A DNA stretch of 64,000 nucleotides from Synechococcus lacustris. GTDB taxonomy: Bacteria; Cyanobacteriota; Cyanobacteriia; PCC-6307; Cyanobiaceae. Where the stretch lies: positions 62,001 to 126,000 of the forward strand of contig CAJAQB010000013.1 of NCBI GenBank assembly GCA_903943975.1, in the 5' to 3' direction. Position numbers and translations under genes: made by a program. Shown here one piece after another: positions 20,049-30,810 of the stretch. Each line of letters opens with the position of its first letter. Position 1 is the stretch's first letter. The notes below the pieces were generated by a model. It was not told the DNA's origin and did no database searches. It saw only the letters and a list, made by a program, of their open reading frames with translations.

Positions 20049-21758
20049 CTAGAGCAGAAAATAGCGCTGGGCCATGGGCAGCAGCTCGGCCGGTTCACAG
20101 CTGAGCAGTTCGCCATCGGCATACACCTCATAGGTTTCTGGATCCACCTCCATCGCTGGCATGGCGTCGTTGTTGCGCATCGCCGTTTTGCCGATGCTGC
20201 GGGTGTTCTGCACCGGCACACAGGGGCTCCGCAGCCCCAACTGGCGGGGCAGGTCGGCGTCTAGGGCCGCCTGGGAGAGGAAGCTGAGCCGGCTGGGGGC
20301 GGTGGCGCCGCCGAAGCCGGCAAACATCGGTCGGCCGTGCACCGGGCCGGGGGTGGGAATCGAGGCGTTGGCATCGCCCATCTGGGCCCAGGCGATCATG
20401 CCCCCCTTGATTACCAATTCAGGCTTCACCCCAAAGAAGCCCGGCTTCCACAGCACCAGGTCGGCCAGCTTGCCCACCTCCACCGAGCCCACCTGGCTGT
20501 CGATGCCATGGGCAATGGCGGGGTTGATGGTGAATTTGGCGATGTAGCGCTTGATCCGCTGGTTGTCGTTGCGGCTGCTGTCGCCCGGCAAAGGTCCCCG
20601 TTGCACTTTCATCTTGTGGGCCGTTTGGAAGGTGCGGGTGATCACTTCCCCCACCCGACCCATCGCCTGGGAATCACTGGCGATGATGCTGAAGGCCCCC
20701 AGGTCGTGGAGGATGTCTTCGGCGGCGATTGTTTCGCGGCGGATGCGTGATTCAGCAAAGGCCACATCCTCGGGAATGCCCGCATCGAGGTGATGGCACA
20801 CCATCAACATGTCGAGGTGTTCCTCCAGGGTGTTGCGGGTGTAGGGGCGGGTGGGGTTTGTGGAACTGGGCAGCACATTGGCTTCCCCGCAGATCTTGAT
20901 GATGTCGGGGGCATGGCCGCCGCCGGCCCCCTCGGTGTGGAAGGTGTGGATTGTGCGCCCGGCAATGGCGCGGATTGTGTCTTCCACAAACCCGGCTTCA
21001 TTGAGGGTGTCGGTGTGGATACACACCTGGATGTCGAAGCGGTCAGCTACCCCTAGGCAGCAATCGATGGCGGCGGGGGTGGTGCCCCAGTCTTCATGCA
21101 ACTTGAGGCCACAGGCGCCGGCCCGGATCTGTTCCTCCAGGGCCTCGGGGCTGCTGGCATTGCCCTTGCCAAAGAAGCCCAGGTTGATCGGGAAGCCATC
21201 GGCGGCCTGCAACATCCGGGCCAGGTGGAAGGCCCCCGGGGTGCAGGTGGTGGCATTGGTGCCCGTGGCTGGGCCGGTGCCGCCGCCGAGCAGGGTGGTA
21301 ACGCCGGAGGCCAGGGCGGTTTCAATCTGCTGGGGGCAGATGAAGTGGATGTGGGTGTCGATGGCACCGGCGGTAACAATCTGGCCTTCGCCGGCAATCA
21401 CCTCGGTGCCAGGACCAATCAGTACGTCGATGTTGTCGCTGATGTCGGGGTTGCCGGCCTTGCCAATGGCACAGATACGTCCATCGCGCAGGCCGATGTC
21501 TGCCTTCACAATCCCCCACCAATCGAGGATCAACGCATTGGTGATCACCGTGTCTACGGCCCCTGCTGCCCGGGATGTTTGCCCTTGACCCATGCCATCG
21601 CGGATTACCTTGCCGCCGCCAAATTTCACCTCATCGCCGTAGCTGGTGAAGTCTTTTTCCACCTCCAGGATCAACTCGGTGTCGGCTAGGCGCAGGCGAT
21701 CGCCGCGGCTGGGACCATAGGTTTCGGCGTAGGCCCGACGGTCCATCTGGTACGCCAT
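20049..21758 (-). CDS. ureC: Urease alpha subunit
   Basis: The catalytic subunit that hydrolyses urea at a dinuclear nickel centre. All key residues are visible: H136 and H138 (DTHIHF), the carbamylated lysine K219 (GLKLHEDWG), H248 (CIHTDTLNE), H274 ([10 protein letters not shown]), the flap Cys-His (MVCHHL) and the metal Asp in ASDSQAMGR. The length of 569 is normal. The start ATG at 21758 overlaps the ureB stop by 1 nt (TGATG). It is the third gene of ureA-B-C on the minus strand. Confidence 0.98.
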
Positions 21759-22066
21759 CAGAGCGCTCCGTTGATCAGGCCGTTGAAACCCACCACCCGG
21801 CGGGCACCCACAAAGGGCACCAGCTGCACCTCGCGGCTGTCCCCTGGTTCAAAGCGGATGGCGGTGCCGGCGGGGATGTCTAGGCGCTGGCCCCGGGCGG
21901 CTTCCCGGTCAAAAAGCAGGGCAGCGTTGGCTTCCATGAAATGGAAATGGGAGCCCACCTGCACGGGGCGATCACCGCTGTTGGCCACCGTGACCAGGGT
22001 TACGGGCCGGCCGGCATTTAGCTCAATGCTGCCGGGTTCAGGGAACAGTTCACCGGGGATCATCAT
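21758..22066 (-). CDS. ureB: Urease beta subunit
   Basis: Structural subunit of the urease trimer (102 residues, usual size), with the family's [15 protein letters not shown] start, the HFHFMEAN segment and the C-terminal [11 protein letters not shown]. Two ATGs stand in tandem at 22066 and 22063; the first overlaps the ureA stop in ATGA. It is translationally coupled to ureA and ureC. Confidence 0.97.
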
Positions 22067-22365
22067 CGGATTGGTTGGTGCAGGGTCACGAGCTTGGTGC
22101 CATCGGGGAAGGTGGCTTCCATCTGAACTTCGGGGACCAGTTCCGGCACCCCTTCCATCACCTGGTCCCGGCGCAGCCAGGTGCTGCCCTCCTGCATCAG
22201 GGCGGCCACGGTTTTGCCATCCCGGGCCCCCTCCAGGATCTGAAAACTAAGCCAGGCCACCGCCTCCGGTTGGTTCAGCCTCAGGCCCCGCAGCAGGCGC
22301 CGCTCCGCCAGTAGGGCAGCGGTCACCACCAGCAGCTTGTCTTTCTCCTGGGGGGTGAGGTGCAT
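22063..22365 (-). CDS. ureA: Urease gamma subunit
   Basis: Small structural subunit of urease (100 residues) with the typical [23 protein letters not shown] start and [27 protein letters not shown] end. It heads ureABC. In most marine picocyanobacteria ureD lies directly upstream on the same strand; here a divergent two-gene cassette (22528-26069) is inserted between ureA and ureD. The 162-nt divergent intergenic region carries an unusual cluster of GTTC/GAAC half-sites. Confidence 0.97.
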
Positions 22366-22527: not shown

Positions 22528-24618
22528 ATGACTGTTTTCAGCAAGCTGGGGATCCAATCGAAGCTGCTGGCCCTGGTGCTGGCGGTGAGTTTGTTCACCC
22601 TGCTGCTCACTGGTTTTGTGAGCTATAGCAGTAGCCGCCAGGCCCTGATGGCTGCTGCTGATGCCCAGCTGGTAGGCCTGCGCAATTCCCGTGCCCAGGC
22701 GATCGAGAGCTATTTCAAGGGCTTGAAGGCCCATGCCCTCACCTTGGGCTATCAGCAGATGGCTGTGAATGCCATCAATAGCCTTGGACCGGCGATCAAT
22801 AGCTTGAACAGCAGCCAGATCACAGCCGAGCAGGCGGAGAGGTTGAGGAATTTTTATGCCAAAGACTTCCTACCGAAATTAAAAAAGAATATTGAGGGCG
22901 ATCCAGCGCTGGCCACTTATTTGCCCATTTCTGCGGCGGATAAGTATCTTACTTACCACTATACGGTGGCAAATCCCTACCCCAAAAATCGCGCTCAGTT
23001 GTTGAAGGCTGGGGACGGTAGTGAATATAGCGAGCTGCATGGGGCCGTGCATAAGCGCTTTCGGGTGATTGCCGAGGAGTTTGGCTATCCGGATCTTTAT
23101 TTGATTGATGCTAAAGGCAATGTTTTATATTCGGTGGCCAAGAAGATTGACTTTGGTGGCAATATTACCGATGGTCCCTTTGCGGGTAGTTCCCTCGATA
23201 AAGCCTTTGAGATGGCCCGTCAATCGCGGGATCCAGATTTCGTTGGTATAACAGACTTTGAAAACTATAAGCCTGGCTATGGGGTGCCGTCAGCCTTTGT
23301 AAGTACGACGGTTTTTGATAAAGATAAGTTTATCGGTGTCTTGGTGCTTGAGGTGCCTTCCCAGCGCATTGATCAGATTATGAATGTGGATAAACGCTGG
23401 CAGCAGGTGGGCCTTGGTGAGTCAGGAGAAACCTATCTGGTGGGGCAAGACCAGCGCATGCGTTCCTCCAGTCGTTTCCTCTTCCAGGATCCCAAGGGCT
23501 ATTACAAGGCCCTCGAAGCCCAGGGGGTGGCCGCTAAGCAGCTTGGCCTGATTAAATCCGCCCAGTCTTCAATTCTGATCCAGCAGGTTAAATCAAAGGG
23601 GGCCCTGGCGGCCTTGGCTGGTAAAGCTGGTTTGGCTTCCTATAACGACTATCGGGGCGTGGCCGTACTTGGAGCCTATGCCCCAATCAAATTAGGTGAT
23701 TTTGACTGGGCTTTAGTGGCCGAGATTGACCAGGCTGAAATATTTAGTGGTGTGCATACGCTTACCCGCAATATGCTGATAACCGCCGCGATCATGATGC
23801 CTTTGATCACCCTGGTTTCTGGGGCGGTGGCTAAAACTTTTCTTACGCCGATTCGCCGCTTGATTGCCGGAACCCACGAGATTGAACGCGGCAATAGTGA
23901 GGTGCAGATTCCGGTGGGCTCCCAGGATGAATTTGGGGAGCTCACCCAATCCTTCAATGCCATGGCCAAGGCTTTGCATGGAAAGGAACAGGCAATTCAG
24001 GCCCACATGCAGGAGAACGACCGCCTGCTGCTCACGATCCTGCCCCCTGGGGCGGCGGAGCGGCTTAAGAGTGGTGAACAGGATATTTCCGATAGTTTCC
24101 CAAATGTGACGGTGCTGTATGTGAATGTTGACGGTGTTGATTCACTTTCGGCCAGTCTTTCAGAGGGGCATGCATATCAACTATTGAATCAGTTGAATGA
24201 GGCCTTTGACGAGGCGGCTGAGCGCTTTAGTGTGGAGAAGATTCGCAGTATGGGATCTATTTATGTTGCTGTTTGCGGTTTGTCGATCCCGCGGGTGGAC
24301 CACGCCAAGCGGATGGTGGATTTTGCCCTGGCGATGATTAATATTATTCGGCGTTTTAACCGCAAGGAGGGCTTGAACCTTGGCCTCGATATCGGCATCC
24401 ACAGTGGGCCAGTGTCGGCGGGGGTGGTGGGTAAAACCAGATTTAATTACGAGGTTTGGGGGGAAACAATGAACATCGCCAAGCAGATCCATGAATCCCC
24501 CGGTCAGAATCAGATCCATGTAAGCCAGTCGGTTTATGAGGCCCTCCAGGGCCTCTACAGCTTTGAGCCAGTTGCTGAACAAGGCAATGCTGAACTGCCG
24601 ATCTGGCGGGTGAGTTAG
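22528..24618 (+). CDS. Membrane Cache-HAMP class III cyclase-like protein with degenerate active site
   Basis: A 696-residue protein: TM1 about residues 14-34, a large extracytoplasmic sensor region about 40-415 (Cache-like), TM2 about 417-438, a HAMP linker about 440-495 (GTHEIERGNSEVQIPVGS) and a class III nucleotidyl cyclase domain about 525-690. The cyclase fold is clear (VTVLYVNVDG, EKIRSMGSIYVAVCG, GIHSGPVSAGVVG, YEVWGETMNIAKQI). However, the two metal-binding Asp positions are N533 and S577, and the transition-state Arg position is Q653; K571 and N649 remain. Catalysis by the usual two-metal route therefore looks impossible. The ATG at 22528 is chosen from the hydrophobic N terminus. 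The stop lies 2 nt before an MscS-like channel gene. Confidence 0.88.
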   Translation: MTVFSKLGIQSKLLALVLAVSLFTLLLTGFVSYSSSRQALMAAADAQLVGLRNSRAQAIESYFKGLKAHALTLGYQQMAVNAINSLGPAINSLNSSQITAEQAERLRNFYAKDFLPKLKKNIEGDPALATYLPISAADKYLTYHYTVANPYPKNRAQLLKAGDGSEYSELHGAVHKRFRVIAEEFGYPDLYLIDAKGNVLYSVAKKIDFGGNITDGPFAGSSLDKAFEMARQSRDPDFVGITDFENYKPGYGVPSAFVSTTVFDKDKFIGVLVLEVPSQRIDQIMNVDKRWQQVGLGESGETYLVGQDQRMRSSSRFLFQDPKGYYKALEAQGVAAKQLGLIKSAQSSILIQQVKSKGALAALAGKAGLASYNDYRGVAVLGAYAPIKLGDFDWALVAEIDQAEIFSGVHTLTRNMLITAAIMMPLITLVSGAVAKTFLTPIRRLIAGTHEIERGNSEVQIPVGSQDEFGELTQSFNAMAKALHGKEQAIQAHMQENDRLLLTILPPGAAERLKSGEQDISDSFPNVTVLYVNVDGVDSLSASLSEGHAYQLLNQLNEAFDEAAERFSVEKIRSMGSIYVAVCGLSIPRVDHAKRMVDFALAMINIIRRFNRKEGLNLGLDIGIHSGPVSAGVVGKTRFNYEVWGETMNIAKQIHESPGQNQIHVSQSVYEALQGLYSFEPVAEQGNAELPIWRVS

Positions 24619-24620
24619 CC

Positions 24621-26069
24621 ATGGCCACTGGCGTAGCGATCCAGGGCTGGGCCCTGGGCTGGACCCTGGGCCTGGTGTTGGGCTTTCCCCTGTTGATGTT
24701 GCTGCTGGGGGAGCTGCAACTGCGGCTGGAGCGGCGTCAACAACCCCTGGCTCAACCCTTGGCAATTTTGCGTCAGGGGAGCCTGCCCCTGGCGGCGGCT
24801 TTTGTGCTGCTGCGGCAGGTGTTGCAATGGCCGGCCGGCGCGATCTTTGTGCGGCTGGCGGAAACCTTCCTTTGGATCACCTTGATCTACGCAGCCTTAA
24901 CGCTGCTGAATGTGCTGCTGTTTGAGCGGGGTGGCAGTGCTGGCTGGCAGGCAAAAATCCCCCAGATATTGCGGGATCTAGGTCGTTTTGTGCTGGTGTG
25001 CATCGGTTCGGCTTTTGTGTTGTCTTCGGTGTGGGGCGCCAATCTTGGCGGTCTGCTCACTGCCCTGGGGGTGGGTTCGCTGGTGGTGGGCCTGGCCCTG
25101 CAGGACAGTCTTGGCAATATCTTTTCGGGGATTTCGCTTTTATCTGAACGGCCATTTAGCCTGGGGGATTGGATTCGTATTGGCGATAAATTTGGCAAGG
25201 TGGTGGAGATAAACTGGCGCTCTGTGCACTTGGTCACCCGCTTTACAGACCTTACGGTGGTGCCTAATTCTGTATTGGCAAAAGAAACATTTTCCAATCT
25301 CAGTAGACCGCGCAGGCTTCACAATGAACGGCTATTGCTTTCGTTCTCCTACGATGATCCCCCCAACAAGGTGATTAAGGTGATCCGAGATCTCTTGGCT
25401 AATATTAATGATGTACTTGAGCGACCCCGCCCCGATGTGTCGGTATATGAGTATGGCGATTCGGCGATTAGTTATTCGATTCGTTTCTATTCAGAGGGCA
25501 TCGAGGAGGCCTTTGATGCGGTTGATGATTTTAAGCTGCGCATCTGGTATGCCGCCAAGCGCCATGGGCTCACGATGCCCTATCCAATCCAGCAGGTGAT
25601 GGCGCACCGCCCCCCTGGGCCCACGGGCGAACAGCGGCGGCGTTTGCAGCTCCAGGGCTTGCAGCGGGTGGCTTGCTTTGCAACATTGCCGGCCGCTGAG
25701 TTGGAATCTATTTTGGCTATATGTGAACAGCAGCGCTATGCCAGCCAGGAGTTGGTGTTGCGCCAAGGGGAGCGTCTGCCTGGCTTATTTGTGATTATGG
25801 AGGGCCGGGCAAGCTTGAATGTGATAGATGCTGAGGGCCGAATGTTTACGATTGGCGTGCTTGCAGCCGGTGAGTACTTTGGTGAGAATGCATCATTACT
25901 TACGGAGCAATGTATCGATACGATGGTATTGGCAACCGAGGATCTCAGTGTGTTGTTGATCGATGCCGACACCCTGCACCATCTGCTGGAAGTGCAGCCC
26001 CGCGTTGCCCAGGACATTGGTGAGGTGATCGAAGTACGCCGCCGTGCCATTCGCGCCCTGGCGCTTTAG
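24621..26069 (+). CDS. MscS-family channel with C-terminal cNMP-binding-like domain
   Basis: A 482-residue protein with several N-terminal membrane segments, the MscS pore/beta region (GLLTALGVGSLVVGLALQD and QDSLGNIFSGISLL, then GDWIRIGDKFGKV), the cytoplasmic vestibule and, from about residue 345, a cyclic-nucleotide-binding-like domain (about 350-475). This is the bCNG architecture. In the phosphate-binding cassette (GENASLLTEQCIDTMVLA, residues 421-438) the GE pair is kept, but the Arg expected before the A-x-V segment is replaced (about I432). It starts 2 nt after the cyclase-like gene, so the two are co-translated. Its stop overlaps the convergent ureD stop by 4 nt. Confidence 0.9.
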   Translation: MATGVAIQGWALGWTLGLVLGFPLLMLLLGELQLRLERRQQPLAQPLAILRQGSLPLAAAFVLLRQVLQWPAGAIFVRLAETFLWITLIYAALTLLNVLLFERGGSAGWQAKIPQILRDLGRFVLVCIGSAFVLSSVWGANLGGLLTALGVGSLVVGLALQDSLGNIFSGISLLSERPFSLGDWIRIGDKFGKVVEINWRSVHLVTRFTDLTVVPNSVLAKETFSNLSRPRRLHNERLLLSFSYDDPPNKVIKVIRDLLANINDVLERPRPDVSVYEYGDSAISYSIRFYSEGIEEAFDAVDDFKLRIWYAAKRHGLTMPYPIQQVMAHRPPGPTGEQRRRLQLQGLQRVACFATLPAAELESILAICEQQRYASQELVLRQGERLPGLFVIMEGRASLNVIDAEGRMFTIGVLAAGEYFGENASLLTEQCIDTMVLATEDLSVLLIDADTLHHLLEVQPRVAQDIGEVIEVRRRAIRALAL

Positions 26070-26929
26070 AGGGGAGCCTCCTGGAAGGGCCAAACCCGCG
26101 GTAATTCCACCGCCGCTAAGCCCCGCTGCTGGCGGATCCGGGCCCAGATCCGGGTGAACCAGAAGCGGGCGGCCTGGCTGGAGGGCCCCCGGTAGCGGGC
26201 GATCAGGCCCCGCTCGAGGGCGCCGCAGGCCAGGCTGCCGGGCAGGCCAGCGCTGTCGGCGCGGCAGAGCTCCAGCAGCTCGGCGGCCACGGCCCCCGGG
26301 CTGGCCCAGACGAGGCTGCCGAACACCGGCTGGCCGTCCATGCCGTGGGGCGCCCCCAGGGCATCGCCCCCCAGCTCAAGCCGGTCCACAAACTCCCAAC
26401 GGCCCTGCCGCTGGATCTCCAGCTGACTGCGCCATTGGCCGCAGCCAAGGCTTTCACCGCTAGCGGTGCGCCCCAAGCGCACCACCTCAGCGCCGAGCCA
26501 GTGGGCATCGGCCCCCAGCTGCACCCGGCAGTGTTGTTCGAACAAGCCACCGCTGAAAACCACGGTTTCCTGGGGTAGCCATTCGAGGTCGGCCGCTGCT
26601 TCCAGCTGAAATTGCAGTTGTTGCCGGGCCCAAAGGCCCTGGGGTTGTTGGCGGGAACGGCCCCTGGTGCCATAGACCTTTTGGGCCGCCACGCTGGTGA
26701 CCAGGGCGCGGCTACCGGCCGCCAGGTGCGCCTCCACCCCCAGCTCATCACCCCCCACCAAACCGCCGGCGGTGTGCAGCAACGGCAGTTCGCAGCGGCC
26801 ATCGCCCCGGCGGAAACTGCGCTGCAGCCGCAGGGGCGCCGTGCTGCCCCCCTGGAAACCGGTGTTGCCATCGGCATCCAGGGCAAAGTGCAGTTCGGCC
26901 CTGCCGCGCCAGGGGTAAGCAATGGCCAT
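26066..26929 (-). CDS. ureD: Urease accessory protein UreD
   Basis: Scaffold for nickel insertion into urease, working with UreF and UreG. The 287-residue protein shows UreD features: PLRLQRSFRRGDGRCELPLLH, TAGGLVGGDEL, TSVAAQKVYGTRG and PQETVVFSGGLFEQHCRVQL. The ATG at 26929 (MAIAYPWRGRAELHF) is chosen; the open frame continues upstream but lacks family similarity and would enter the divergent ureE region. It is divergent from ureE, and separated from ureA by the inserted cyclase/MscS cassette on the opposite strand. Confidence 0.93.
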   Translation of the reverse strand: MAIAYPWRGRAELHFALDADGNTGFQGGSTAPLRLQRSFRRGDGRCELPLLHTAGGLVGGDELGVEAHLAAGSRALVTSVAAQKVYGTRGRSRQQPQGLWARQQLQFQLEAAADLEWLPQETVVFSGGLFEQHCRVQLGADAHWLGAEVVRLGRTASGESLGCGQWRSQLEIQRQGRWEFVDRLELGGDALGAPHGMDGQPVFGSLVWASPGAVAAELLELCRADSAGLPGSLACGALERGLIARYRGPSSQAARFWFTRIWARIRQQRGLAAVELPRVWPFQEAPL

Positions 26930-27033
26930 GGGGTGATGCTTCTCCTGCTGCCCCCAAAACTTGGTAACAACCAACACCTTTTTCCCTGCCTCTGGCCGGG
27001 AGGCTGGGGCCAGGACCAGGGGGATAAGCGTTG

Positions 27034-27498
27034 ATGGCGGATGGGGAGTTGGCAGCACTGGTGCTCGAGCGGCGGTTGGCGGCCCCAGGTCAGCAGCCTG
27101 TCCCCAGCCTCTGCCTGCCATTGACGGCGGCGGAACGCACGGTGCTGCGCGGCCGGCGCCTCAGCAGCTGCGGCCAGCCATTGCTGTTGCAATTGCCCCG
27201 GGGGGCGGCGCTGCGGCCGGGGGAATGGCTGGCGGCGGCGGATGGTTTGGCCTTGGTCCAGGTGCAGGCGGCGGCGGAGAGCTTGCTGCGGGTCACGGCC
27301 GTTGAGCCCCTGGCCCTGGTGCAGGCCGCCTATCACCTCGGCAATCGCCATGTGGCCCTCGAGTTGCACTGCGGCGAGCTGCGGCTGCTGGCCGACAGCG
27401 TGCTGGCCGATCTGCTGCGCCATCGGGGCCTCCGGGTTGAAGCCCTGGAGGCCCCCTTCCAGCCGGAGGCGGGGGCCTATGGGGGGCATCATCCGTGA
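27034..27498 (+). CDS. ureE: Urease accessory protein UreE
   Basis: Nickel metallochaperone for urease, 154 residues, with the two-domain UreE layout: an N-terminal segment with LTAAERTVLRGRRL and a C-terminal metal domain with AAYHLGNRHVALEL. The C terminus ends GGHHP, far shorter than the His-rich tails of some enterobacterial UreE. The start is the ATG at 27034; a TTG 3 nt earlier is in frame. The stop overlaps the ureF GTG start (GTGA). Confidence 0.93.
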   Translation: MADGELAALVLERRLAAPGQQPVPSLCLPLTAAERTVLRGRRLSSCGQPLLLQLPRGAALRPGEWLAAADGLALVQVQAAAESLLRVTAVEPLALVQAAYHLGNRHVALELHCGELRLLADSVLADLLRHRGLRVEALEAPFQPEAGAYGGHHP

Positions 27499-28184
27499 GC
27501 GGGCCCCAGCTGCAGCTCCTGCATTTGCTGCAATTGGTGAGTCCGGCCCTGCCGGTGGGGGCCTTCAGCTATTCCGAGGGGCTCGAGGTGTTAGTGCAAC
27601 AGGGCGGGATCACTGGCCCTGTCCCCCTGAAGGCCTGGCTTGGGGCCGAACTGGAACGGGGGGCGGTGGCGCTTGAGGCGGCGGCGCTGGGGCCCCTGGG
27701 CTTGGCCCTGGCGGCCTGGCAGGCGGATCCCAGGGGTACCGGCGAAGCGCAGCTGCGCGACCTGGATGGCTGGTTGTTGGCCCAGCGGGAGGCGCCGGAA
27801 CTGCGGGCCCAACAGCGCCAGATGGGTCGCTCGCTGCTGCAGCTCTTGGCGGAGCTGGGCTGGCCCCTGCCCGGCGGGGTTTGTGACCTGGGCTGGCCGG
27901 CGGCCTGGGCCTGGGCCGGCCACTGCCTCGAGCTGCCCCAGCTGGCACTGCTGGAGGGATATTTGTATGGCTGGCTGGCCAACCAGTTGAGTGCGGCGGT
28001 GCGGCTCGTGCCCCTGGGGGCCACCACTGGCCAACGCTTGCAACTGGAGCTGGCGCCGGTGCTGCGGCGGCGGGCTGAGCAGTTGTTGGGGGCTGATCCG
28101 CGTCAGCTCTGGAGTGGCGCCGTGGGGGCGGGGTTGGCTCAGCTGCAGCACGGCAGCCTGTATTCGCGGCTGTTTCGCAGCTAG
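27495..28184 (+). CDS. ureF: Urease accessory protein UreF
   Basis: Activating partner of UreD-UreG in urease maturation. The 229-residue helical protein has the family's QLVSPALPVGAFSYSEGLE motif near the N terminus and ATTGQRLQLEL near the end. It starts with GTG overlapping the ureE stop. In related picocyanobacteria ureG follows directly; here about 10.2 kb of other genes intervene before ureG. Confidence 0.94.
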   Translation: MSGPQLQLLHLLQLVSPALPVGAFSYSEGLEVLVQQGGITGPVPLKAWLGAELERGAVALEAAALGPLGLALAAWQADPRGTGEAQLRDLDGWLLAQREAPELRAQQRQMGRSLLQLLAELGWPLPGGVCDLGWPAAWAWAGHCLELPQLALLEGYLYGWLANQLSAAVRLVPLGATTGQRLQLELAPVLRRRAEQLLGADPRQLWSGAVGAGLAQLQHGSLYSRLFRS

Positions 28185-28409: not shown

Positions 28410-29435
28410 CTAAGAGCCATGTAAAGGGGCGGAAATATTCAGTTTATCCTTGCGTCTGCCAATGGTAAGGCCGGCCAGTAAAAACCCTAAAGAAAGAATA
28501 ACCCCGGCTTCAAAGATTTTTAAAGCCTTGTGCCGAGATGAAGCATACACTTCACTTTGAGGGCTTTCAACCAGTAGGGCAGTCCGGAAATTTGGCAAAA
28601 ATTGGTAAACCCCGATCACAGGAATACCGTCACTATTTAGATAAAGGCCTTGGCCGGAAATGCCATCAAGAGCCTTGGTAATACCAGCGCTGTCTAAGGG
28701 TTTAAACTTATAGTCAGATTGACTGGAATCTGGAGGGGCAATAAATGTAGCCTGGTCTAGGGAAGTTCTTGCAACTAAGTAGGATTTATAGGAGCCAGGG
28801 CTGTCTGCGGAGCCTTGAAGGGCTGTGGAATTATCTAAGACTTGCTTGTTTAACATCTGGAGATTGAGGTCAATTGCCAAAAAGCCTGCCCTCGCCTTAG
28901 CCTCTGAGTGAATTGGTAACGCAACTGATATAGATGGAAGACCAGTGATGGAATCAGTAAAGAAATTCAGAGGTTTTCTTGGCAGTTCAAAAAGCTCAAG
29001 AGTTGTGGTTGTATTTTTGAGGGGTTGATAGGCAGCATATCTTTTGTGATTAGTTGAAAAAACCACAATGCCGCCTTTGGTCAGCAAAGATGCGCTGTTA
29101 CGGTTTTTAGAGTGGCTGGAAAGAATTGACTCAAGAACCTGGCTATTCTCAGAAGTTATATCGGATTTGCTGTGCCGTTTTGCTTGTAGAATATTAAGTG
29201 AACGAGAATGTAATTCAGGGTTGCTGAGATCCTGTCCAATGTTTTCAACTTCAGATTGCCACCATTTTGCGATGCGTGACTGATTGTCATTTAGAATTAG
29301 TTTCTGCCTTTCAATCGCTTGGCTGGTCAATGGTATGTTGCCTAAATTATAGGTTGCCAGGGAAATAACACTTGACGAGGTCAAGGTTGCAACTGAAAGT
29401 CGGAGCCAGAAGGAGTGTGTTTTCATGATGGTCAT
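28410..29435 (-). CDS. Membrane-anchored Cache-like sensor domain without an output domain
   Basis: A protein of about 341 residues: an N-terminal TM (about 5-27), a large extracytoplasmic region with Cache-like features (GIVVFSTNHKRYAAYQPL, ITGLPSISVALPIHSEAKAR, AGFLAIDLNL), and a C-terminal TM (about 305-325) ending RRKDKLN plus a short tail. No kinase, cyclase, GGDEF or chemotaxis domain follows. The start is uncertain: ATG at 29435, 1 nt after the preceding stop, or 29426. It is last in a four-gene minus-strand run after the solute-binding lipoprotein. It may be a sensory or accessory partner of that lipoprotein, or a 3'-truncated receptor. Confidence 0.7.
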   Translation of the reverse strand: MTIMKTHSFWLRLSVATLTSSSVISLATYNLGNIPLTSQAIERQKLILNDNQSRIAKWWQSEVENIGQDLSNPELHSRSLNILQAKRHSKSDITSENSQVLESILSSHSKNRNSASLLTKGGIVVFSTNHKRYAAYQPLKNTTTTLELFELPRKPLNFFTDSITGLPSISVALPIHSEAKARAGFLAIDLNLQMLNKQVLDNSTALQGSADSPGSYKSYLVARTSLDQATFIAPPDSSQSDYKFKPLDSAGITKALDGISGQGLYLNSDGIPVIGVYQFLPNFRTALLVESPQSEVYASSRHKALKIFEAGVILSLGFLLAGLTIGRRKDKLNISAPLHGS

Positions 29436-29436
29436 G

Positions 29437-30810
29437 TTAATTATGGTCGGCAAAAATCTTTTTAATGTCTATTATTGCAGCATCAGCGGCCTTTTCCGTT
29501 GATAGAGTGCCAGTGGCAATAGACTCTATTGCGACGCCCCATATATTTTTGGCAATCACTTCGCTATAGGCTGTATTTTGAATCCATGCAGGATCCTTCG
29601 GTGTGTTCAGATTATTGATTGCCGTCTTAATGTGCTCATCTTTTTGGCTATGCCAGAATGGCATTGCCATGATAGGTTTGGTTGCCGGTAGAAATCTTCC
29701 TTGAGATCCTATAACGTAACGACCTAAATTTTCAGTTTTCAACAGATAAGAGAGTAAACTTTTTGCTTCGCTTGTATTAGAGCTATCAAATACAATTGCC
29801 TGTTTAATTGAGGCATAGGAGCGCATGGGTGTGCCGTCAATCTTATTGGGCCAAGCTACTGATCCAATTCGATCAAAATAGGCAATTTCGTCAGAAAGCT
29901 GAGAACCTGGTATGGAAAGTGTAGGATTTGCTGTCATGACTGATAGACTGCTTAGGAAATTTATATTGTTGTCGGGATCTGACCAAGTAGTCGCCTTAGG
30001 GGGGACAAAATGCTCCTTATAGTTACTTGTGTAATCAGTAAGAGCCTGAATGATCTTTTTCCTAGTGCCAGGCTCATCGACGGTCAGCTTCCCAGCTGTA
30101 CTGATTAGGCCAGCATCGTAAGCCTCCAAAAAGAATTCAAAAATATAGGTTGTATCCCTTGCTAGGCTAGACATGGGCAGCGCTAATCCGTAGACGTCGT
30201 TATATCCTTTGCTTCGTAATTCTTTCTGCGCAGTGTGCCAGAATTCCCAGAATTTCTTCCATTCACGAGGAATAACATACTCTTTTCCATCGCCGCCAGA
30301 GGCAATCTCAAGCAGATCTTTCCAGTAGTGTAGGTTGACTGAGTGTTGAGATATTGGGGCGCCATAAATTGATTTTTTATTCTTTTCTTTATTGAAATAA
30401 CTTATGCCGTCTATTACACCTGGCAGTAGATCCGGCTTGATTGGTTTGATTATGTCGTCTAAGGGGACTAGCTTGTTGTTATAACTTAGAATTGGCACTA
30501 CTGTGTCATTAATGCCATAGCCATACATTAGGTCAGGTGTTGGGCCACCATTAATTGCAGAGCGCGCTTTGGCCGCCAGTTCATTTTCACTAAAAAAGGT
30601 TAGCTTGATTTTATTGCCTGTGAGCCGCTGCCAATTCTTAAAGATTGTTTCAATGGCATCTGTCTCTTCAGGGTAATATCCTTCAGACCACCAAACTTCT
30701 AGATCGTGCTTTCCTTTCTTGTTGCCGCGGCTGCTCAGCAGGTCTATGTTCGTGCAGGAGGCCAACAGACCGCTGGCAATTCCGGTGCTGATGAAAACCC
30801 GTCTCTTCAT
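29437..30810 (-). CDS. Orphan family 1 extracellular solute-binding lipoprotein
   Basis: A 457-residue protein with a lipoprotein signal (MKRRVFIS...LLASC, lipid-attached C19) and a solute-binding family 1 body: DLEVWWSEGYYPEETDAIE near the mature N terminus, PTPDLMYGYG, then a tryptophan-rich second lobe (EWKKFWEFWHTAQKEL). Such proteins bind sugars, oligosaccharides or related solutes for ABC importers, but no permease or ATPase lies next to it. The next gene in the direction of transcription encodes a Cache-like membrane protein, so it could act in sensing. Base composition is AT-richer than the flanks. The ligand is unknown. Confidence 0.82.
   Translation of the reverse strand: MKRRVFISTGIASGLLASCTNIDLLSSRGNKKGKHDLEVWWSEGYYPEETDAIETIFKNWQRLTGNKIKLTFFSENELAAKARSAINGGPTPDLMYGYGINDTVVPILSYNNKLVPLDDIIKPIKPDLLPGVIDGISYFNKEKNKKSIYGAPISQHSVNLHYWKDLLEIASGGDGKEYVIPREWKKFWEFWHTAQKELRSKGYNDVYGLALPMSSLARDTTYIFEFFLEAYDAGLISTAGKLTVDEPGTRKKIIQALTDYTSNYKEHFVPPKATTWSDPDNNINFLSSLSVMTANPTLSIPGSQLSDEIAYFDRIGSVAWPNKIDGTPMRSYASIKQAIVFDSSNTSEAKSLLSYLLKTENLGRYVIGSQGRFLPATKPIMAMPFWHSQKDEHIKTAINNLNTPKDPAWIQNTAYSEVIAKNIWGVAIESIATGTLSTEKAADAAIIDIKKIFADHN

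Follow-up and report, generated by a model that had tools for sequence, protein, structure and literature searches.

A conserved cyanobacterial gene pair of a dCache-HAMP (pseudo)cyclase and an MscS-type channel that probably signals without cAMP or cGMP

How does a receptor with a broken cyclase domain work beside a channel whose CNBD has lost the arginine that binds the cyclic nucleotide phosphate? The question is raised by two plus-strand genes in a 64,000-nucleotide stretch of Synechococcus lacustris DNA (hereafter, the window), whose nearest relatives are found in Synechococcus and Cyanobium records. The initial annotation proposed that both partners had degenerated together and had left cyclic nucleotides (cNMPs) behind as a unit. 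The features of the pair are as follows.

22528..24618, plus strand: coding sequence of the dCache-HAMP-pseudo-cyclase (696 aa; AlphaFold2 mean pLDDT 88.3)
23083..23721, plus strand: dCache_1 Pfam match, residues 186-398 (43.2 bits, slightly below the curated cut-off of 45)
23827..23979, plus strand: HAMP domain, residues 434-484 (Pfam)
24091..24567, plus strand: class III cyclase homology domain (CHD), residues 522-680 (PF00211 Guanylate_cyc, 129 bits)
24124..24126, plus strand: Asn533, replacing the first metal Asp (alignment)
24244..24246, plus strand: Arg573, replacing the adenine-site Lys (alignment)
24256..24258, plus strand: Ser577, replacing the second metal Asp (alignment)
24451..24453, plus strand: Glu642, replacing the adenine-site Asp (alignment)
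24472..24474, plus strand: Asn649, the sole retained catalytic residue (alignment)
24484..24486, plus strand: Gln653, replacing the transition-state Arg (alignment)
24619..24620, plus strand: 2-nt spacer from stop to start codon, letters CC
24621..26069, plus strand: coding sequence of the MscS-type channel with a C-terminal CNBD-like domain (482 aa; AlphaFold2 mean pLDDT 89.6)
24627..25148, plus strand: five predicted membrane helices, of which the last (residues 142-176) is an MscS-like pore helix with a GLALQ motif
25104..25307, plus strand: MscS beta domain, residues 162-229 (Pfam)
25731..25991, plus strand: cNMP_binding match, residues 371-457 (the model shows a beta roll and B/C helices)
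25884..25886, plus strand: Glu422, the conserved cassette Glu, retained (alignment)
25914..25916, plus strand: Ile432 at the position of the phosphate-binding Arg (alignment; Ser in 114 of the 124 family channels that could be scored)

The 2-nt spacing given in the initial annotation is exact. We set the cyclase start at 22528 because homologues align from there, while the open frame would permit 22489. Over 113 linked pairs of the family, the median gap is 7 nt, and 47 of the 113 overlap or have a gap of zero (by open-frame limits); this spacing strongly suggests that cyclase and channel genes are coexpressed. A urease cluster surrounds the window pair, with ureABC-like structural genes on the minus strand on one side (20049-22365) and ureD, ureE-like, and ureF genes on the other (26066-28184). 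A link between the pair and urease was rejected, as urease genes lay near the pair in none of the 15 relatives examined. Further along, at 28410-29453, the window encodes a membrane protein that matches dCache_1 weakly and has no recognized output domain, adjoining a gene for a solute-binding protein (29437-30810).

AlphaFold2 models of both proteins were built with 67 family members. In the cyclase model, the periplasmic sensor spans residues ∼40 to 410, and the CHD fold is kept (Foldseek aligns it to solved class III cyclases, with a TM-score for 5o5k of 0.88 by target length). The fold is thus that of a class III cyclase, but the two metal Asps are absent and the Asn + Arg pair is incomplete. 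The cyclase is therefore as degenerate as first described, with Asn533, Ser577, Gln653, and the substituted pair Arg573/Glu642 leaving only Asn649. Judged by the class III mechanism, this CHD should not work as a cyclase, whether by itself or in either position of a heterodimer; rescue by heterodimerization was rejected because the metal pair and the Arg are both missing.

The window channel matches MS_channel_2nd, MS_channel_3rd, and cNMP_binding in Pfam, and its model resembles E. coli MscS and YnaI. It has the pore helix, the GLALQ-type gate region, and the fold of an MscS-type channel. As in bCNG channels, the MscS pore and beta domain are followed by a CNBD fold, but the Glu + Arg cassette of those channels is incomplete: Glu422 is retained and Ile432 stands in for the phosphate Arg, confirming the absence of that Arg. 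The channel has the MscS pore fold and may carry a mechanical or osmotic signal, a role that is unproven.

Loss of the Arg is not peculiar to the window. Among 127 family entries, the position holds Ser in 114, Ala in 5, Thr in 4, and Ile in 1 (the window channel), with 3 unscorable, so that the phosphate Arg is present in 0 of 124 scorable family channels. It is present in all 24 MscS-CNBD channels sampled outside the family (eight of the MscS2 clade, the planctomycete channel L151, and fifteen further planctomycete channels). Across the family the position is thus a conserved, nonrandom Ser. The cassette Glu is retained in 104 members and lost in 21 scorable ones, with 8 changes on the tree, and Asp441 occupies, in 122 of 125 rows, a position where other MscS-CNBDs have Glu. 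On these residues, cNMP gating of the family channels is not expected, and we consider it likely that coupling within the pair takes some route other than canonical cNMP binding to the channel.

A pocket of this kind may have been re-specified for another small ligand, a nucleotide or metabolite, with the receptor acting in parallel or through that ligand, so that contact between the proteins would be unneeded. The predominance of Ser, the retained Glu, and the near-invariant Asp441 make the pocket look selected rather than decayed, and the Glu kept in 104 members possibly points to a ligand, which counts against the two-gene module that we favor below. However, the Glu has been lost repeatedly, the window residue is Ile, and no candidate ligand is known; we regard this explanation as unlikely.

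The partner cyclases are far more varied. Of the 117 in which all scored positions were readable, 7 keep both Asps, the Asn, and the Arg (L122, L129 from Nostoc, L141, L149, L144, L146, and L152), and 38 keep the Asps and Asn with another residue at the Arg position. Both metal Asps are found in 58/117 and the Arg in 16/117; at least one metal Asp is lost in 59/117, and in 50/117 the Arg is absent as well. The charges for base recognition are better kept, with Lys/Arg in 106/117 and Asp/Glu in 106/117. On a tree of the concatenated proteins with the trait columns masked, the minimum numbers of changes were 10 for the first Asp, 4 for the second, 9 for the Asn, 6 for the Arg, and 2 for the fully intact state. 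The closest nonfamily cyclases, which are similar over the HAMP and cyclase domains only, are intact in 11 of 11 cases. By these residues, most of the paired proteins cannot be canonical cyclases.

The degeneration was not joint. We rejected strict codegeneration, since the CNBD loss is invariant, while the state of the cyclases varies between full integrity (7/117) and complete loss. The CNBD Glu was indeed missing alongside loss of a metal Asp in 18/59 cyclases, against 3/56 with the Asps kept, but the association vanished with phylogenetically independent pairs. Pairs with one partner intact exist and the two degeneracies vary independently, the very pattern named beforehand as refuting the initial annotation, and its account of two partners leaving cNMPs together does not hold. 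What survives of the proposed cNMP independence is that the CNBD Arg is lost family-wide and that most partner cyclases are noncanonical. As the residue distributions read, loss in the receiver is ancestral, and loss in the writer is later, repeated, and incomplete. A receiver that lacks the Arg throughout, together with a writer free to lose catalysis, favors coupling without cNMP at the channel.

The preserved charges leave room for nucleotide binding, and the pseudo-cyclase might then be a nucleotide sensor that binds ATP or GTP without turnover and, gated by the Cache domain, reports the energy state of the cell to the channel. Those charges do outlast the Arg and the pair of metal Asps, but they may serve folding, and triphosphate binding should be weak in proteins without the metal Asps, so that we find this reading rather improbable.

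Alternatively, the cyclases could still make cNMP, weakly or as dimers, for other targets such as CRP, the channel sharing only the stimulus. The seven cyclases that look catalytically complete may indeed make cNMP, which also counts against the favored two-gene module, and the 38 lacking only the Arg could be added to them; moreover, the window's genome elsewhere encodes a CRP-like regulator and two further cyclases with complete catalytic residues. This fits poorly with the 50 cyclases that lack both the Arg and at least one metal Asp, and with a window protein that keeps a single catalytic residue. We consider residual cNMP production for other targets a decidedly improbable explanation.

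Returning to a pair coupled without cNMP at the channel, we asked how selection acts on the broken domain. Over the computed close pairs of all clades, Nei-Gojobori dN/dS values for the CHD ranged from 0.02 to 0.28 and were mostly 0.02 to 0.2; they were 0.03 to 0.05 in a clade in which the first Asp is changed to Gln, and 0.126 for L053-L074, from the window's own clade. The CHD is, in most pairs, constrained at least as strongly as the sensor or the CNBD. The dead CHD is thus still selected, also in clades with broken sites: purifying selection retains the broken cyclase domain for a purpose. A decaying operon in which both genes are becoming pseudogenes would account for two broken active sites but not for open frames, confident folds, low dN/dS in every clade, and a pair that persists across many cyanobacterial branches; with dN/dS and broad conservation against it, we rejected decay as very improbable.

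The gene pair is a conserved unit, as the initial annotation had supposed. When 84,980 species genomes were scanned, 80 channel-family loci came up, most with a family cyclase directly upstream; noncyanobacterial members include a Myxococcota MAG (L111) and the planctomycete Aeoliella (L087). In the window's class, HMMs for the two families were run against 291 genomes: 65 have the cyclase, 64 the channel, and 63 both, leaving 2 cyclase-only genomes and 1 channel-only genome (Fisher P of ∼2 × 10−60, which overstates independence, as the genomes are related). A contig end truncates the cyclase in the channel-only genome, and genome completeness is 72 to 77% for the two cyclase-only ones. Both genes are retained although far apart in 5 of the 63 genomes. 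That the two are chance neighbors with no functional link is favored by nothing except how common cyclase and MscS genes are in general, and 63 genomes with both families, including those five, against 3 with one alone place the adjacency beyond chance and make this reading close to negligible. Because dozens of cyanobacteria have kept the two genes together, the pair probably passes on its signal without cAMP or cGMP. We found no published description of the cyclase/channel pair in the open-access literature, and it is a real, conserved, and apparently undescribed system related to the bCNG channels.

Several loci depart from the usual arrangement. Gene order is reversed at two (L235 and L236). 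In Crocosphaera, Hyella, and relatives (L084-L086, L088, and L105), the flanking sequence examined around family channels lacks a family cyclase, and the Arg is lost there too. Two paired (pseudo)cyclases (L233:629-3229 and L237:663-3293) carry an added C-terminal globin (PF00042), and in a third (L238:877-3438) the PF00042 match is weak and under the cut-off; the globin is possibly a heme or oxygen input to the module. At L240:4794-7238, the same type of Cache-HAMP sensor bears an MCP signaling domain in place of the cyclase, and the next gene encodes a response regulator-cyclase. We count L240 and the globin-bearing cyclases as output swapping, in favor of the module. At L121:689-3409, Cache-HAMP and channel are joined in a single open frame that lacks the cyclase domain and the first channel helices; given a clean absence of ∼0.9 kb relative to L091 on a single MAG contig, we did not use it as evidence of a natural fusion.

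An intact counterpart lies in the same genome. About 100 kb from the pair (L020:2618-7751; G000:C13), a CHASE2-class III cyclase with both Asps, Asn, and Arg kept, a CRP-like regulator, and an Arg-bearing MscS-CNBD channel are encoded within ∼5 kb. Beside them lies a gene (L020:61-2637) for a membrane protein of 858 aa that ends in a CNBD and weakly matches 4Fe-4S (Fer4_5). Relatives of the CHASE2-cyclase and MscS-CNBD genes are similarly associated in L065, L066, L070, and L071, and likewise in L151, where the cyclase near the Arg-bearing channel is intact and of the CHASE2 type. In the best channel tree, L151 falls at the base of the family, with weak support (53). Its basal place and the CHASE2 counterpart suggest that a CHASE2 partner was exchanged for a dCache-HAMP partner and the Arg lost on one branch.

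We therefore describe the system, with confidence evenly balanced, as a conserved two-gene module in which a dCache-HAMP (pseudo)cyclase receptor is joined with a five-helix MscS channel whose CNBD-like domain has been re-specified away from cAMP/cGMP. In the working mechanism, the periplasmic Cache domain would sense a ligand or a physical state and move the HAMP domain and coiled-coil stalk; the cyclase-fold dimer would change shape instead of making cNMP, and this change, passed on through the CNBD-like domain, would make the MscS-like pore more or less likely to be open. The simplest carrier between dimer and CNBD-like domain would be direct contact, a route that we hold plausible at slightly less than even confidence. 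More tentative is the full proposal that a dead-cyclase-fold receptor gates an MscS-type channel through a cyclase-fold dimer touching the CNBD-like domain, the messenger having been lost. As for the order of events, the channel likely ceased to read cNMP first, on the branch that gained the dCache-HAMP cyclase partner, after which the cyclase would have been free to lose catalysis repeatedly.

Interprotein covariation gave no CHD-CNBD signal beyond clade structure, in what was a weak test (Neff, ∼59). CHD-CNBD pairs seemed enriched about twofold among the top 200 covarying pairs, but their number (29) equaled that in within-clade re-pairings (mean, 28.8), so the enrichment reflects clade structure, and we rejected it as a sign of direct contact. 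The mismatch in symmetry, seven subunits in the channel against two in the receptor, also counts against the module.

Among known systems, the closest are the bCNG channels, cyclic-nucleotide-gated members of the MscS superfamily described in 2010 to 2012, Ss-bCNGa being reported to answer tension (Caldwell 2010; Malcolm 2012; both cited in PMC4560390 and PMC13312541). The window channel is like them in its MscS-type pore, C-terminal CNBD, and, in the model, five predicted membrane helices; the family differs in lacking the phosphate Arg and in its tie to a dCache-HAMP (pseudo)cyclase. The CHASE2-cyclase/MscS-CNBD systems (L020, L065, L066, L070, L071, and L151) likewise place a class III cyclase near an MscS-CNBD channel, but there both active sites are intact, the sensor is CHASE2 (a domain tested in L020 and L151), and the genes are near without always being adjacent, L020 having the CRP-like gene between them on the opposite strand. 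The intact paralogous system in the window's genome is thus a control, and the family itself forms a natural series: its cyclases extend from those with complete residues to fully broken ones, and the receiver is changed in all pairs. Together, series and control make the link between sensor and channel after loss of the messenger directly testable in culturable cyanobacteria.

Kinases and GGDEF domains offer well-known cases of pseudo-enzymes that go on signaling once catalysis is gone; for a conserved pseudo-cyclase linked to a channel, we found no description in the open-access literature. Another relative is the CyaG kind of cyanobacterial membrane adenylyl cyclase (Kasahara 2001, cited in PMC4284465). 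The HAMP-class III cyclase architecture is shared, but CyaG is reportedly an active enzyme, whereas catalytic residues are missing from most members of the present family. In KCNH (EAG/HERG) channels, the CNBD fold has ceased to respond to cNMPs, but these channels differ from the window channel in their unrelated, voltage-gated K+ pore and have no paired cyclase-fold receptor.
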